Source of the DNA: Streptococcus suis
Lineage (GTDB): Bacteria; Bacillota; Bacilli; Lactobacillales; Streptococcaceae
Assembly (NCBI GenBank): GCA_024583055.1
Contig: CP102145.1
Span: forward strand, 1,736,001-1,800,000
Length of the DNA: 64,000 bases
Direction: 5' to 3'
Shown here: one piece after another, positions 8,645-17,100 of the stretch
Layout of the letters: every line of letters begins with the position of its first letter
How positions within the stretch are numbered: the first letter of the stretch is position 1
Notes under the pieces: model-generated
Seen by the model: the letters and a program-made list of their open reading frames with translations, nothing else
Told to the model about the DNA's origin: nothing
Database searches by the model: none
Made by a program: the position numbers and the translations under genes

Positions 8645-9817
8645 ATGGATGTTCTCTATCAATCTTGTGCAGGTATTGATATCCATCAAGCCAATATCGT
8701 TGTCTGTATCCTACATGGACCACTCACCTCAACTCGTCCAAAGCGTGAGACGGCTACGTTTGATACAACGACTAAAGGCCTACGTGCTTGCCACGATTTT
8801 CTCAGTCAATTTCATGTGGAAGCTGTTGGTATGGAAAGTACAGGTGTTTATTGGCGACCTGTCTGGCATGCTCTATGTGATGACTTCAAGTTGATACTCG
8901 CTCAACCAGCCCACATGAAGGCTATTCCAGGTCAGAAAACCGACAAGAAGGATGCTCACTGGATAGCCAAATTAACACGGATTGGGCTGCTTCCTCGGAG
9001 TTTCGTTCCCGATGAAACCATTCAAGAATTGAGGGAGTTGACCAGACAACGAAAACATTATGTGGAAAGTCGCAATCGAGAAACCAACCGTATCCATAAA
9101 ATTCTTCAGTCAGGTGGCATCAAGCTAACAACCTATATCGAAGATATTATGGGGCTATCTGGTCGCAATCTCCTTCAGCTACTGGTTGATGGGACGCCTA
9201 TTACACCTCGTATTGTCCATCAATCAGTTTACACCAGCTTGAAGAAGAAAGTGCCGCAGCTTCTGGAAGCCTTGGATGGCTATTTTTCTGACCATCACCG
9301 CTTCATGTTAAAGCAGTCCTTAGAGATTTATGATTTTTATCAGAAGCAGATTGAGTTGTTGGAAGAGCGAATGAATGTCTATCTATCACAATATGAAAAC
9401 CATGTAGAAATATTGGATTCCATCCCAGGCATTGATGTCATTACAGCCTCCGTTATTATTTCTGAGGTTGGTGTTGACATGAGTCAGTTTCCTACTGCTG
9501 GACATTTAGCTTCTTGGGCTGGACTTTGTCCAGGTAATAATGAGAGTGCTGGTAAAAAACGAAGTACCAAGATTCGACACGGAAATTCTTATTTGAAGAA
9601 ATGTTTATGCCAGGCCGCTTTCGCTGTCAAAAAACAAAAAGGAAGTCCTCTAGCAGACCGATTTTATCAGATTCAAAGTCGGCGTGGTTCACAAAAAGCA
9701 ACAATTGCACTCGCACATCAATTATTAAAAATAGCTTATATCCTTTTAAAAGAGCAGATAACGTATCCTGAATTTTTAGCACAGAAAAAGACTACTAGGG
9801 ACGAGCTAGTAGCCTAA
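8645..9817 (+). CDS. IS110-family transposase (DEDD/Tnp_20 serine recombinase)
   Basis: A 390-residue transposase that moves its own element. The N-terminal RuvC-like DEDD domain shows Asp12 (GIDIHQ), Glu64 (GMESTGVYW) and Asp100/Asp103 (KTDKKDAHW). The C-terminal Tnp_20 domain shows IPGIDVITAS, LASWAGLCPGNNES and the GKKRSTKIRHGNSYLKK segment, which carries the catalytic serine region. GAAGGAGGG lies just before the ATG. The frame is full length and undamaged, so the element may be active. Confidence 0.94.
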   Translation: MDVLYQSCAGIDIHQANIVVCILHGPLTSTRPKRETATFDTTTKGLRACHDFLSQFHVEAVGMESTGVYWRPVWHALCDDFKLILAQPAHMKAIPGQKTDKKDAHWIAKLTRIGLLPRSFVPDETIQELRELTRQRKHYVESRNRETNRIHKILQSGGIKLTTYIEDIMGLSGRNLLQLLVDGTPITPRIVHQSVYTSLKKKVPQLLEALDGYFSDHHRFMLKQSLEIYDFYQKQIELLEERMNVYLSQYENHVEILDSIPGIDVITASVIISEVGVDMSQFPTAGHLASWAGLCPGNNESAGKKRSTKIRHGNSYLKKCLCQAAFAVKKQKGSPLADRFYQIQSRRGSQKATIALAHQLLKIAYILLKEQITYPEFLAQKKTTRDELVA

Positions 9818-10118: not shown

Positions 10119-11285
10119 TTACCATCCACCGCGACCTCCAGGTGCGCCCCCCATTGCGCCGGGGCCGGTTTGGACAATTTCAGTTTGTATCTGGCCATTG
10201 ACTGTGACATCTCCACCTGTAAAGGAGACGGAACCGTCAAAGTCAAAGGCTGAAGTAGGTGCAGTTATGTCAATGGTGCCACCAGAAATGATCAAATCAC
10301 CATTGGAATCAAAGGCATCCGTATCGCCATTTCCGACAGCAACGGTCAAATCACCCCCGGTGACCTTGATGAAGATATCGCTGGCTGTATCGCTTGCAGC
10401 ATTGATGGCATCATCAGAACCATAAACATCCAAGTTTCCACCATTGATAGTGATATTGGTTCCTTCCAAGGCCTCGGTTGACTCAGTTACTTTAATCGAA
10501 CCATCTTCAATGGTCAAGGCAGATTCAGCTTTGATACCGTCGTCACCTGCTGTGACAGTGATGGTTCCGCCCGTGATAGTGGTATTTCCTTTCGTAGTAT
10601 CCTCGTCGTTTGTCGCCTTGATACCATCGCCACCTGCCATCACGTCAATCCTACCACCTGTGATGGTCAATGAATCCTTACCGCGAATACCGTCATCCTG
10701 AGCTGTTACCGTAATATTTCCAGCCTCGATGGTCAAGTCATCGGTAGAGACAATCCCGTCTTGGAAATTGCCTTCAACGGTCAGTTTACCATTGCCAGTG
10801 ATAACTAAATCCGACTCCGAATGAATAGCCCCTTCAATATCTGTATCGGAATGAGTGCTAGTGTCTGAGACAGTATTTTCGGTGCCATCTTGCAAGTTAA
10901 TTTCAAGATTATCAGCAGATAGGATATTGATAGCTGCGGTATCTGTGCTAGAAATGGTAGCTCCGGCCAAAATCAAACGCACATTTTCCTGAGTGTCAAT
11001 GGTTACACCTTTTGTAGTCGAACCGCTTAGAATATAGGTTCCGCCTTCAGTGATGGTCAAGCCCTCGTCAGACAAGGTAACTTCTTGACTAGGGAGTGAC
11101 GACCAATCAATGCTAGAAGTGCTTGCGGTGTTGCTCGTGCTTGAATTGGTCGTCATTACTTGGCTGCTGGTAATCGTCTTGCTGGTTTGGGTCTGTCCTT
11201 GGGCAGAAGAACAAGCAGCTAACGTAGCGATAGTGAGGAGGGCAATGCCAGAGGCGAGTAGTTTTTTCGTCTTAGTTTTCATCAT
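10119..11285 (-). CDS. Lipoprotein with Cthe_2159-type carbohydrate-binding beta-helix
   Basis: A 388-residue exported lipoprotein with a basic N-terminus, hydrophobic core and lipobox LAAC (Cys25). A Ser/Thr-rich linker (about 30-65) follows, then a long domain of repeated beta rungs. D/GDGIKA and DDGI-type turns recur about every 20-30 residues (ADDGIRGKD, GGDGIKATN, GDDGIKAES, SDDAINAAS, DTDAFDSNG), often with TITGG or TIEDG. This is the pattern of the Cthe_2159 family (PF14262), a parallel beta-helix with calcium and acidic-sugar binding in studied members. The tail is GGAPGGRGGW. It is the last gene of the VTC-DUF4956 operon, which suggests an exported partner of that module. Confidence 0.85.
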   Translation of the reverse strand: MMKTKTKKLLASGIALLTIATLAACSSAQGQTQTSKTITSSQVMTTNSSTSNTASTSSIDWSSLPSQEVTLSDEGLTITEGGTYILSGSTTKGVTIDTQENVRLILAGATISSTDTAAINILSADNLEINLQDGTENTVSDTSTHSDTDIEGAIHSESDLVITGNGKLTVEGNFQDGIVSTDDLTIEAGNITVTAQDDGIRGKDSLTITGGRIDVMAGGDGIKATNDEDTTKGNTTITGGTITVTAGDDGIKAESALTIEDGSIKVTESTEALEGTNITINGGNLDVYGSDDAINAASDTASDIFIKVTGGDLTVAVGNGDTDAFDSNGDLIISGGTIDITAPTSAFDFDGSVSFTGGDVTVNGQIQTEIVQTGPGAMGGAPGGRGGW

Positions 11286-11303
11286 AATGATTTCCGTCTT
11301 TCT

Positions 11304-11975
11304 TTATAAATATTTCTTTTTAGGTGTCTGTTTATTGACAATGAAATTGAGTGGATTGGCTTCGACAATGGATTTTGTCAAGGCTTGGTCTGAGATGCTT
11401 GATTCCAAAACCAGAGAATATTCGAGGACCAGTGCCTGCTTTTTCTTTTTGTAGCTAATGGATAGGATTTCTTCCTCCTTACAAGCTGCTTTGAAGACCT
11501 TCTTGAAAAAATGTTGGTAATCAAAATCCAAGGGAACAGTTAGGAGAATGTGTCGTCTCCTGTGATCGGTTTGACCATAATTCACAGTTTCAAAGAGGAG
11601 CATGGCGCCGCAGATGACGAGCGTCAGGAGGCTGGCCAGTCCCAGATAACCGGTTCCTGTTGCTAATCCGATGGCCATAGCCAGTAGGACTGCCAGCATT
11701 TCTTTGGAAGAGCCAGAGGCAGAGCGGAAACGAATGAGACTAAAGGTCCCAGCGACGGCTAAGCTAGTCCCTAGACTGCCGTTGACCAAGAAGATGATAA
11801 AGGCAATCAGGGTTGGCATCAGGGTCAAAGTTATGACAAATTCCTTGCTGTAGCTGGATTTGTGCTTGTAGGTCATTGCCAGTAGATAACCCAGCACCAA
11901 GCTGATCCCCATAATTAAACTGATTTGCAGGGCGATGGAGCTGGTGGTAGATAAGATACTATCGAATAGGTGCAT
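11304..11975 (-). CDS. DUF4956 integral membrane protein
   Basis: A 223-residue protein with about four membrane segments (roughly residues 15-35, 47-67, 68-86 and 93-129). A cytoplasmic-looking C-terminal domain of about 90 residues follows (VPLDFDYQHFFKKVFKAACKEE onward). The GTFSLIRFRSASGSSKE loop is the family's conserved stretch. The biochemical role of DUF4956 is not established. It overlaps the VTC-domain gene upstream by 17 bp and is followed within 18 bp by the lipoprotein, so the three form one operon. Fused to polymerases in eukaryotic VTC complexes, a membrane part translocates the polymer; by analogy this protein may do so here (inference). Confidence 0.82.
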   Translation of the reverse strand: MHLFDSILSTTSSIALQISLIMGISLVLGYLLAMTYKHKSSYSKEFVITLTLMPTLIAFIIFLVNGSLGTSLAVAGTFSLIRFRSASGSSKEMLAVLLAMAIGLATGTGYLGLASLLTLVICGAMLLFETVNYGQTDHRRRHILLTVPLDFDYQHFFKKVFKAACKEEEILSISYKKKKQALVLEYSLVLESSISDQALTKSIVEANPLNFIVNKQTPKKKYL

Positions 11976-12702
11976 AGGCTATCAACTCCTTTTCTGGGCT
12001 AGTCGCGAGGCGGTAAGCCGTTCCGTATTTGGAGAAGGATTTTCTCTCAATAGCGTGCTTTTCAAGGAGCGCGGATAGCCAATCTGGAATCGTCTCAGCT
12101 GCTTTGATTTCCATAATCATTAGGTCAGGGTCCAGCAGGACCTTTTCTTTTGCAGCTGATTTAAGCGCCGGATGTTTGTCTGAATAGGTAACGTTTTGGT
12201 CAATGGTCAAGCGGAGTTTTGGATCCTCTAGCCCCTTGAAGGACTGGCGTTCATAGCGAATGAGAATTTTCGGATAGAGATTGCCATACCGTTTCCGAAG
12301 CGATTGAATTTCTTGGCAGACAGGTTGGTCTGTCAGGCTGCTGTCGCGCAAACCTGTACGGAGGAAATATTGAATAATGTGCGGTGTTGATTCTAGTCGG
12401 TACTTGTAACCAATGCCATCGATTTTTTTCTTGATTTCCAAAAAGGCGGTGCTGTTGGCATGAGGCTGAGCATCGTAGAGCCGAATCCGAACCTTTTCAC
12501 GCTGATGCTTTTTGGCTAAGGCATCCTGCACCATGTCAAAATCCTCATTATCAAAATAAATGCTGGTAATGGTTGAATGAGCATAGTCATCTGCAAGGAG
12601 ATGGGGCTGGGCATCGCGGAGGAAGAGTCTCCAGGTCGCTTTGCTGAGGATGTATTTAGTTTCCCTACGTTTGAATTGTTTTTGGCTGATAGTGGTTTTC
12701 AT
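11959..12702 (-). CDS. VTC-domain polyphosphate polymerase
   Basis: A 247-residue protein of the VTC domain family (PF09359), which makes polyphosphate from ATP in a tunnel-shaped TTM fold. The residues expected for catalysis are all present: Lys16 in RRETKYIL, Arg72 and Arg74 in KVRIRLYD, Lys91 in FLEIKKK, Arg152 in IRYERQSF, Arg164 in KLRLTID, Glu198 and Lys200 in IMEIKAAE, and Lys225 in SFSKYG. The start is the ATG at 12702, placed 6 bp after GGAGAGG; the upstream in-frame TTG is less likely. It is first in a three-gene operon with a DUF4956 membrane protein and a lipoprotein. Bacterial VTC-only proteins remain little studied. Confidence 0.87.
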   Translation of the reverse strand: MKTTISQKQFKRRETKYILSKATWRLFLRDAQPHLLADDYAHSTITSIYFDNEDFDMVQDALAKKHQREKVRIRLYDAQPHANSTAFLEIKKKIDGIGYKYRLESTPHIIQYFLRTGLRDSSLTDQPVCQEIQSLRKRYGNLYPKILIRYERQSFKGLEDPKLRLTIDQNVTYSDKHPALKSAAKEKVLLDPDLMIMEIKAAETIPDWLSALLEKHAIERKSFSKYGTAYRLATSPEKELIAYAPIR

Positions 12703-12793: not shown

Positions 12794-12854
12794 ATTCAAT
12801 TTTGGGCGAAAAAAATCCCCCATCACGAGGATAGGGAAAAATGGAGTAAATAGG

Positions 12855-14725: not shown

Positions 14726-15142
14726 TTACTGAGTAGTTGATTGGGGCTGTGCTTTCCTGTTTCCGGTAAAGAAGAGGCTAATCAAGGCAAGAACTAAGAA
14801 TCCTGCGCCGATAAACCAATAGGGTTGGTCCAAGGTGGTTGAACGACCAGACAGGTTGATGATACCACGGAGGAGAAAACCTGCTGTAATGGTTGCAACA
14901 CCTGAATTCCAGAGATTATAGGTCAGGCGAGAGAGTGTGCGATGGATGGTCATCAAGCCAAGTAGAAGACTTCCACCGATTAGGGTTACGCAGAACAGAT
15001 AGTGCATATGGAAAGCTGTTTCTCCATAACTGAGGCTTTCATAGACCCGACTGAAGATGAAGAGGAAGGATGTTAGTGCTAAATAAGTGATAAATGTGCG
15101 AATAGTGCGTTTGTTTTCTGTATTAGTAGCCGATGTAGACAA
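14726..15142 (-). CDS. Small four-helix membrane protein of unknown function
   Basis: A 138-residue protein that I do not recognise. A charged N-terminus (TENKRTIRTF) is followed by four hydrophobic segments at about 17-32, 47-66, 79-97 and 107-125, ending in a polar Gln/Ser tail (KAQPQSTTQ). It begins at a TTG codon (15142) inside the end of the phosphodiester glycosidase gene (20-bp overlap) with GGTGAG just upstream, so translation is probably coupled. Its place as the last gene after a GtrA-type glycosyltransferase and an exported glycosidase suggests a part in surface-glycan handling (inference from context only). Confidence 0.75.
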   Translation of the reverse strand: MSTSATNTENKRTIRTFITYLALTSFLFIFSRVYESLSYGETAFHMHYLFCVTLIGGSLLLGLMTIHRTLSRLTYNLWNSGVATITAGFLLRGIINLSGRSTTLDQPYWFIGAGFLVLALISLFFTGNRKAQPQSTTQ

Positions 15143-16061
15143 TGTCGCTCACCGCCCTTTCTGAGATAGTATTTCCGTTTGTTGTTGGGTTGTTAATCAC
15201 TTGACCGTTGAAGTAGAGGGTTGATGAACCACCGCCGTCTAGGTTGTAGGCAGTTGTTGCTCCGTATTGTTTCATAACTTCTGCCAGTTGATAGAGGGAT
15301 AGACCTTCACTTTCAGAAGTACGACCGTCTGCCACAACGATGATATAGTGGTTTTCATCGATGATACCAATGGCTGAACGAGGGTTGGAAGACATGGCCC
15401 GTCCAACTTCTGTTGATGTATCCACCACGATTTCACCATTTTCTACCAAGGTTGGCCCGAAGGCGAGCAAGTTGACAACGCCATTGTCAATTAACTCTTG
15501 AGCTGTTATTTCATTTTCATAGATAATTTCAAATGAGCCGTCAGCATAAATTGCCAAGTCACCATAAGAAGCATTGTCACGGACGGTATCACGGTAGAGG
15601 ACACCATTCTTGATGACGTAACCTGTTGAGTTGGCACCGTAGTAGTCGCCGTTGACCGCCAAGATGGCATTGTTGGCTGCAGCGGTTTCAGATGTTTTGG
15701 CTGTGACGTTGGTACCATAAGTATTTTGAGCTAAGGCTGTTTTCAAGTACTCAGGTGAGCTGACTTGGATATCCGCTACATTGACAGTTGTGTTGTTGGT
15801 TGTAATAGTTTCGAGTGTGATTTGGATGTTGTCATCAGCGTAAGAGGTATCAGTTGTTGTCACATTGGTTGAGGTTGTTGCAGCGGTGCTACTTGCTGCT
15901 GTACTGGAATTTGTCGTCGCTGCAGCGGTTGTCGTTGCGGATTCTACGGTTGTAATAGCTTCAGAGAGGACAAAGGTTTTGAGCATGGAGTAGGTGAAAC
16001 CACCAGTGAGTAATGTACCGAATAGTGATGCGTATATGAAGGGTTTTTTAAGCAATTTCAT
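15123..16061 (-). CDS. Membrane-anchored phosphodiester glycosidase (NAGPA/DUF2233 family)
   Basis: A 312-residue protein with a single N-terminal membrane anchor (about residues 8-28), a long Ser/Thr/Ala linker (about 40-80) and a NAGPA-type domain to the end. The domain shows NNAILAVNGDYYG, SNPRSAIGI, VVADGRTSESEGLSLYQLA and the hallmark YNLDGGGSSTLYF. Family members cleave sugar phosphodiester bonds; the substrate here is unknown but should be outside the cell. The start is the ATG at 16061 (AAGGAAGG about 9 bp upstream). It overlaps the glycosyltransferase gene by 14 bp, so the two are coupled. The linker is of low complexity and probably spans wall material. Confidence 0.85.
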   Translation of the reverse strand: MKLLKKPFIYASLFGTLLTGGFTYSMLKTFVLSEAITTVESATTTAAATTNSSTAASSTAATTSTNVTTTDTSYADDNIQITLETITTNNTTVNVADIQVSSPEYLKTALAQNTYGTNVTAKTSETAAANNAILAVNGDYYGANSTGYVIKNGVLYRDTVRDNASYGDLAIYADGSFEIIYENEITAQELIDNGVVNLLAFGPTLVENGEIVVDTSTEVGRAMSSNPRSAIGIIDENHYIIVVADGRTSESEGLSLYQLAEVMKQYGATTAYNLDGGGSSTLYFNGQVINNPTTNGNTISERAVSDIVYIGY

Positions 16062-17100
16062 GGGCAAGTGCCTTCCTTTCATTGAAAATAATATGTTTTT
16101 GAATATACCAAGAGAAGAAAAAGAGGGAGAGGCCAACTGTGATTTTCACCAAATAAAGATTCAATCCAAACAGTTGGTGGAAAATATAAATCAGAGAGGT
16201 GTCGCAGATGAAGAGGGCCAAAGCTAGGGTCAAATAACCGAGGCCAGTAGTTTGGACGCTCTGCTCGTTTTGAAAGACCAGCTTTTTATTGAGGTAATAA
16301 TTGGACAGAGAGCTGGTAACACGAGCCAAGCCATTGGCAATGAGGATATGAATACCCGAGGGCAGAGCAGTCAAACTTGCGATAAGCAGAGCATAGGCAC
16401 CGTAGTCTACCAGAAAACCGCCCAGTGAGGCCAGGGCAAATTTGAAGAGGTTTTTGTAGATGAGTAAGCCGTCCTTGATAGGACGGAAATGCGAGCTAGC
16501 ATTATCATCTATATAAATGGTCTGAATGGGAACCTCGGTAATGGGAAACTCTTGGCTAGCTTGGGTCAGCATATTCATTTCGTACTCATAACGGTGGCCT
16601 TTGATTTTCAGCATAAAGGGCAGGAGCTTGGAATGAAAGGCGCGTAGACCAGTCTGGGTATCGCTAACCTTGACACCAGTTTGAAGGCGGAAGAGTAGAC
16701 GGGTCAGCTTATTACCAAAACGACTGCGGAAAGGCACATCATTGCTAAATTGACGGACTCCCAGAACTAAGTGATTGGGCAAATTCATAGCAGCCCGCGC
16801 CACTCTATCCATATCGTTGACGGAGTGCTGGCCGTCCGCATCAGCTGTTACGATGACAGAATTGGAGTCACGTTCTTGAATATATTGAAAAGCAGTTTTC
16901 AAGGCCTGGCCTTTTCCTAAATTACGCTCGTGGTGAAGAACGGTTGCGTAAGAACTAGCTTGCTCGATGATGGCTTTCGAAGCTTCAGTGCTTCCGTCGT
17001 TAACTACAATAATCTTGCAATTGAGCCGATGCTTCAAAGCGTTCAATAGCTCCAGTAATTTCTGATCTGGCTGATAGGCGGGGATGATGACATAATACAT
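16048..17100 (-). CDS. GT2 glycosyltransferase fused to a GtrA-type membrane domain
   Basis: A 350-residue two-domain protein. Residues 1-220 are a dolichol-phosphate-mannose-synthase-like GT2 catalytic domain: IIPAYQP, VVNDGSTE, ADADGQH metal site and DTQTGLRAF. Residues 225-345 are a GtrA domain with four membrane helices. Such proteins load a sugar onto undecaprenyl phosphate and flip or hand it on for decoration of surface polymers. It is the first gene of an operon with an exported phosphodiester glycosidase and a small membrane protein. GAGGT precedes the ATG at 17100. Confidence 0.87.
   Translation of the reverse strand: MYYVIIPAYQPDQKLLELLNALKHRLNCKIIVVNDGSTEASKAIIEQASSYATVLHHERNLGKGQALKTAFQYIQERDSNSVIVTADADGQHSVNDMDRVARAAMNLPNHLVLGVRQFSNDVPFRSRFGNKLTRLLFRLQTGVKVSDTQTGLRAFHSKLLPFMLKIKGHRYEYEMNMLTQASQEFPITEVPIQTIYIDDNASSHFRPIKDGLLIYKNLFKFALASLGGFLVDYGAYALLIASLTALPSGIHILIANGLARVTSSLSNYYLNKKLVFQNEQSVQTTGLGYLTLALALFICDTSLIYIFHQLFGLNLYLVKITVGLSLFFFSWYIQKHIIFNERKALAHEIA

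Follow-up and report, generated by a model that had tools for sequence, protein, structure and literature searches.

Does a three-gene cluster in Streptococcus suis, coding for a VTC-domain protein, a DUF4956 membrane protein, and a Cthe_2159-family lipoprotein, make polyphosphate and move it out of the cell, as a first-pass annotation had proposed? The cluster lies in a 64,000-nt stretch (assembly GCA_024583055.1, contig CP102145.1, positions 1,736,001 to 1,800,000), hereafter the window, to which all coordinates refer. We find that VTC and DUF4956 are a real, conserved, and near-obligate two-gene unit whose association is not due to chance, and that the window locus is the Cthe_2159 version of it. 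We tentatively favor, at a level somewhat short of probable, a reading in which VTC makes polyphosphate inside, DUF4956 exports it or gates that step, and the lipoprotein handles the product outside.

The pairing was followed in two even draws, a phylum sample of 199 genomes and a genus sample of 98, each including the window's own genome. In the phylum sample, the two families occur in the identical 25 genomes, with 31 copies of each, and 30 of the 31 VTC copies have a DUF4956 no more than 2 kb away on their own strand; in the remaining case, VTC is found at one contig end and DUF4956 near another. Of the genus genomes, 56 have VTC and 57 have DUF4956, with 56 in common, and DUF4956 is directly downstream of 67 of the 75 VTC copies; the one DUF4956 without VTC is a 151-amino acid open frame (G062). 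A third set of 120 VTC genes has DUF4956 within 4.5 kb of 115, and three of the five exceptions are at contig ends; its proportions are biased, as a single Cthe-type pattern search supplied most of it (80 loci retained out of at least 590 relatives), and it holds at least one place twice (L090 and L198). Among 14 control genomes, both families match the same three: Bacteroides ihuae, Corynebacterium glutamicum, and Methanosarcina acetivorans. The linkage that the annotation had proposed to check does occur outside the window strain, and the refuting outcome it named did not arise. The window features are as follows.

11959..12702, minus strand: VTC-domain protein of 247 amino acids, a Vtc4-like triphosphate-tunnel enzyme and candidate polyphosphate polymerase.
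11304..11975, minus strand: DUF4956 membrane protein of 223 amino acids (PF16316, E 1.2e-16; model pLDDT 79.8).
11586..11936, minus strand: predicted membrane part of DUF4956, residues 14-130, with R84, G76, and G103 invariant.
11328..11567, minus strand: ferredoxin/ACT-like domain of DUF4956, about residues 137-216.
10119..11285, minus strand: Cthe_2159-family beta-helix lipoprotein of 388 amino acids (PF14262, E 7.3e-71).
11211..11285, minus strand: lipoprotein signal peptide and lipobox (LAAC, Cys25), read from the sequence.
12816..12838, minus strand: terminator-like hairpin between ilvD and the VTC gene, from a consensus scan only.

The three minus-strand open reading frames (ORFs) had been placed correctly at 10119..12702, and their close packing holds, with a 17-bp overlap of VTC and DUF4956 and an 18-bp gap from DUF4956 to the lipoprotein gene. 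The VTC ATG at 12702 looks a better start than the alternative, a longer TTG ORF, because GGAGAGG directly precedes it. The VTC protein matches PF09359 in Pfam (161.5 bits, E 3.2e-47, cut-off 23), and its closest database protein, at 98% identity, is labelled Streptococcus suis. The nine residues picked out in the annotation (K16, R72, R74, K91, R152, R164, E198, K200, and K225) were well chosen: they are invariant in 120/120 sequences, which include the window's own and hold at least one place twice, K16 being invariant in the 117 that reach its column. The invariance of K225 is partly a selection effect, because the search pattern that yielded 80 of the loci itself included SKYG. The Vtc4 tunnel residues K200, R264, R266, K281, R361, R373, E426, and K458 all align and are invariant where reached, with a weak alignment around E426 and K458 by sequence alone. 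The predicted fold is a VTC-type tunnel, nearer Vtc4 than the other triphosphate tunnel metalloenzymes and triphosphatases compared, and the protein is Vtc4-like in this predicted fold and in its tunnel residues. The eukaryotic VTC complex (Vtc1/Vtc3/Vtc4), a polymerase with a translocase, has the same tunnel fold and catalytic residues and likewise a membrane part tied to the polymerase; in contrast, Pfam finds the VTC domain alone in the window's 247-amino acid protein, with no SPX and no fused membrane domain, the DUF4956 protein is separate and MgtC/ACT-like, and a lipoprotein is added.

PPK1, PPK2, and Ppx-GppA, which match 7, 8, and 10 of the 14 control genomes, are all without a match in the window genome, and VTC is the only candidate for polyphosphate synthesis found there by sequence searches. 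The lack of a Ppx-GppA match would agree with a product that escapes cytosolic recycling, other phosphatases lying outside the search. According to a 2023 review of polyphosphate evolution, VTC is mapped over eukaryotes and PPK1 is the main bacterial enzyme. PPK1 and PPK2 have the same proposed product as VTC but belong to different families. PPK1 occurs in only two of the 98 genus genomes (G021 and G078, the former also with VTC) and VTC with DUF4956 in 56, so polyphosphate in most of the sampled streptococci would need another route (controls aside, PPK2 and Ppx-GppA were searched in the window genome only).

In the reading we favor, VTC docked on DUF4956 would make polyphosphate from ATP at the inner face, and DUF4956, with its invariant R84 and basic ACT-like domain assigned to the cytosolic side, would take the growing chain and let it out or gate the step. 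Outside, the strongly acidic and probably calcium-binding Cthe_2159 lipoprotein, or CotH at other loci, would handle the product, with Cthe_2159 making contact through calcium bridges rather than directly; in the window genome, the unit would be the sole polyphosphate-making route found. Of these elements, polyphosphate as the product is our best guess, export by this route is plausible, and retention by the lipoprotein is the least secure.

Several observations weigh against this reading. The VTC active site differs from that of Vtc4, with E14 (116/116 sequences reaching the column) in place of T198 and K70 (120/120 bacterial sequences) in place of A262. The Vtc2 and Vtc3 chains score equal to Vtc4, so the fold cannot tell the catalytic subunit, which is Vtc4 according to the 2023 review, from the others. 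By Pfam, DUF4956 is missing beside eight of the 75 genus VTC copies, and seven of the eight adjoin Cthe_2159; the distance correlation also carries shared descent. Comparisons that barely tested the membrane part of DUF4956 revealed no kinship with the VTC membrane domain, and some relation to MgtC was seen. The mature lipoprotein has 54 D/E and 13 K/R residues and a net charge of about -41. In Streptococcus intermedius, PMC12345266 reports that deletion of SIR_1592, the DUF4956 homologue, raised Pel and lowered aggregation, and no effect on either is stated for deletion of SIR_1593, the VTC homologue; the differing phenotypes suggest that VTC and DUF4956 are not one linear chain in that species.

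The eight unpaired VTC copies are all in genomes with a complete VTC-DUF4956 pair elsewhere, and in the eighth (L025) the VTC gene has an internal stop and adjoins a DUF4956-like ORF detected with our own profile. VTC followed by Cthe_2159 with no DUF4956 between, together with a separate VTC-DUF4956 pair, was observed in G009, G035, G046, G047 (L205), G048, G063, and G070. A fusion of VTC to a shortened DUF4956 (P0086), considered as proof of interaction, is the only such entry among the best 120 of 176 and the best 120 of 747; we rejected it as a deletion or assembly product because unfused clusters of 95-97% identity exist and it sits on a single 1.7-kb contig.

The DUF4956 protein itself matches PF16316 at 61.3 bits (Pfam cut-off 30.6). 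Rather than the four helices first described, its model shows five membrane-length helices followed by a ferredoxin/ACT-like domain. By sequence and model, DUF4956 looks MgtC/ACT-like, and the ACT-like domain is read as cytosolic. The MgtC and DUF4956 families may share a weak sequence relation and an ACT-like C-terminal domain; they are separate Pfam families, and DUF4956 is distinguished as a near-obligate VTC partner. A sequence search found no solved structure at a useful level (best E 1), and Foldseek with the model gave no match at E<=0.001; we do not call the fold new because structure comparison barely tests the membrane part. Passage of the polymer through DUF4956, as the annotation put it, is not supported by these results: the protein has an MgtC/ACT-like look. 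DUF4956 could instead be a sensor or regulator, with an MgtC-like membrane part and an ACT-like ligand domain, that switches the enzyme or membrane energetics and is no conduit for the polyphosphate made by VTC, which we judge somewhat unlikely. Weak matches to MgtC PF02308 in 44 of 63 DUF4956 family members (E<=10, best 1.5e-05), an ACT-like C-terminal fold whose highest-ranking structural matches include 2lqj, a C-terminal domain of MgtC, and the differing S. intermedius phenotypes stated in PMC12345266 all point this way. However, the window's own protein has no PF02308 match, many ferredoxin folds rank level with the ACT-like matches, and the near one-to-one pairing and matching copy numbers in the phylum fit a structural complex at least equally well.

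The lipoprotein matches PF14262 at 238.9 bits (Pfam cut-off 25.8), carries the LAAC lipobox as its export signal, and resembles structures 4peu and 4phb (phmmer E 1.1e-36), which we take to be Cthe_2159 of Clostridium thermocellum, a beta-helix protein of the same family. The family is associated with binding of calcium and acidic polymers, and Pfam names Cthe_2159 a carbohydrate-binding domain. Because the lipoprotein is so acidic, the polymer-holding function first assigned to it is unlikely to involve direct contact with polyphosphate without bridging cations. We found no link of Cthe_2159 to VTC-DUF4956 in the papers searched, with most subscription journals outside coverage.

A partner family, Cthe_2159 and/or CotH, is present in every VTC genome of both samples. 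In the genus, Cthe_2159 occurs in 54 of 56 VTC genomes and 12 of 42 others (Fisher 2.6e-13), with CotH beside VTC in the remaining two; in the phylum, one or both occur in 25/25 VTC genomes and 8/174 without VTC (Fisher 3.5e-25), three of these eight being below the family cut-off (G273, G206, and G177). Near the 31 phylum copies (within 6 kb), the partner is CotH at 19, Cthe_2159 at 7, and neither at 5. Within 3 kb of the 75 genus copies, Cthe_2159 is downstream on the same strand at 16, divergent at 24, and upstream at one; CotH is found at seven and neither at 27. The three genes are therefore no single fixed set, since the partner may be Cthe_2159 or CotH and often neither is adjacent. Strict mutual exclusion of the two was considered and rejected: they are never found together within 6 kb at any of the 31 loci, but both occur in 10 of the 25 genomes and nearby in three tree rows. 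CotH counts for the 120-gene set are low because a five-seed profile missed at least two Pfam-known CotH genes (L200 and L176). A hydrophobic N-terminal segment was seen by a crude scan in 23 of 24 CotH and 67 of 71 Cthe_2159 proteins. The median net charge is -32 for CotH (range -82 to +18) and -51 for Cthe_2159 (-113 to -11).

The window's lipoprotein could also be an unrelated neighbor of a working VTC-DUF4956 pair. Ten streptococci with related VTC genes encode Cthe_2159 proteins 64-72% identical to it with no VTC or DUF4956 match in the surrounding stretch, and it is 39-51% identical to four VTC-adjacent Cthe_2159 proteins (L201, L204, L205, and L207). This higher identity to unlinked copies suggests that it may have come to lie next to VTC when separate parts were joined again; alternatively, an ancestral linkage may have been lost elsewhere. 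The 27 genus copies with neither partner also suit a chance neighbor, yet the Cthe_2159 enrichment in VTC genomes does not, and the order VTC-DUF4956-Cthe recurs at 50 of the 120 VTC genes (Cthe-biased) and 7 of 31 in the phylum. The VTC tree (119 rows) likewise splits largely by partner, with support of 100/99: one side has 26 rows (22 CotH and four without a partner), and the other, which includes the window, has 93 (53 Cthe downstream, 11 Cthe divergent, three both, one CotH, and 25 without), although a long branch connects the two sides, and the tree program cautions that joins of this kind can be spurious. Overall, we consider a chance neighbor very doubtful. Two streptococci (G012 and G091) group with a member of another family (G260) in one CotH-type VTC clade with starred support (L199, L202, and L194), which may mean transfer.

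Related genes have been described at Pel loci, and the module's billing as largely uncharacterised needs a qualifier to that extent: two papers describe CotH-PPP-DUF4956-DUF4832 as accessory genes of Gram-positive pel clusters in 2020 (PMC7112168) and single deletions of S. intermedius SIR_1594-SIR_1591 as Pel accessory genes in 2025, with altered Pel level and aggregation in the DUF4956 and CotH mutants (PMC12345266). A 2024 Clostridium perfringens survey names, at one locus, a CotH kinase together with two proteins bearing a polyphosphate polymerase domain. We found no paper on a tested bacterial VTC enzyme in the literature searched, to which the same coverage applies. Like the window, the Pel accessory set has adjoining VTC and DUF4956 genes and an exported protein; the window differs in having Cthe_2159 in place of CotH, and its VTC lies across the well-supported tree split. 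CotH has no match in the whole window genome, and no contiguous pel genes are present among the scanned neighbors, ilvD and the IS110 transposase, the scan being confined to the locus.

An alternative is that the VTC-like enzyme, instead of making free polyphosphate, acts as a (poly)phosphate hydrolase or hands phosphate on to a surface polymer or its precursor, the module tailoring an exopolymer as with Pel. Besides the known Pel association and two Pel-linked loci among 22, E14 is reminiscent of hydrolytic tunnel enzymes, and the carbohydrate-binding name of Cthe_2159 would fit. ExExK is the hydrolase motif of tunnel enzymes. Against it, the VTC residues and fold are nearer Vtc4 than the triphosphatases compared, and PelF/PelG relatives were not found in the flanks of 20 of the 22 CotH-VTC-DUF4956 loci (BLAST E<=1e-5); we hold this alternative to be unlikely. 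The 22 are all 19 phylum and three of seven genus CotH loci, with flanks up to about 8 kb, eight of the loci covering less than 16 kb each; G020, G021, G056, and G069 were outside the scan. The usual order is VTC-DUF4956-CotH, unlike the Pel order CotH-VTC-DUF4956; CotH is upstream at four of the seven genus loci, and the scan took in just one of those four, the Pel-linked G054 (L200). The 20/22 result qualifies the statement in PMC12345266 that the CotH-PPP-DUF4956 arrangement is absent outside Pel loci, bearing in mind that the order usually differs and three of seven streptococcal CotH loci are covered.

The cluster is flanked upstream by ilvD and downstream by an IS110-family RNA-guided transposase gene (8645-9817, plus strand), which ends ~300 bp from the lipoprotein gene end. 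A shared operon with ilvD is disfavored by a 152-bp gap and the terminator-like hairpin, a consensus match only. Between ilvB and ilvD (14726-17100, minus strand) are a GT2-GtrA glycosyltransferase, an NAGPA phosphodiester glycosidase, and a 138-amino acid ORF without a Pfam match. None of the three cluster proteins matches defence-system models. A response regulator or kinase is within three genes upstream at 31 of 119 loci (24 divergent regulators and seven same-direction kinases; BLAST, one seed each), and we rejected two-component regulation as a defining trait on this count; a divergent regulator is seen at L092:6925-8840 and at other clostridial loci.

A broader view, which we offer as quite unlikely, is that the unit gives bacteria a third and independent polyphosphate route besides PPK1 and PPK2, in which the chain is placed outside the cell and there serves exported partners as a source of phosphate or as a scaffold bridged by cations. 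In one branch, these partners would be CotH-type kinases, for which external ATP would be scarce, and in the other, acidic beta-helix lipoproteins. DUF4956, and Cthe_2159 and CotH in a VTC setting, are poorly known families that gain a testable role, and if the reading we favor is true, some bacteria without the usual enzyme may make and export phosphate chains through the VTC-DUF4956 unit.
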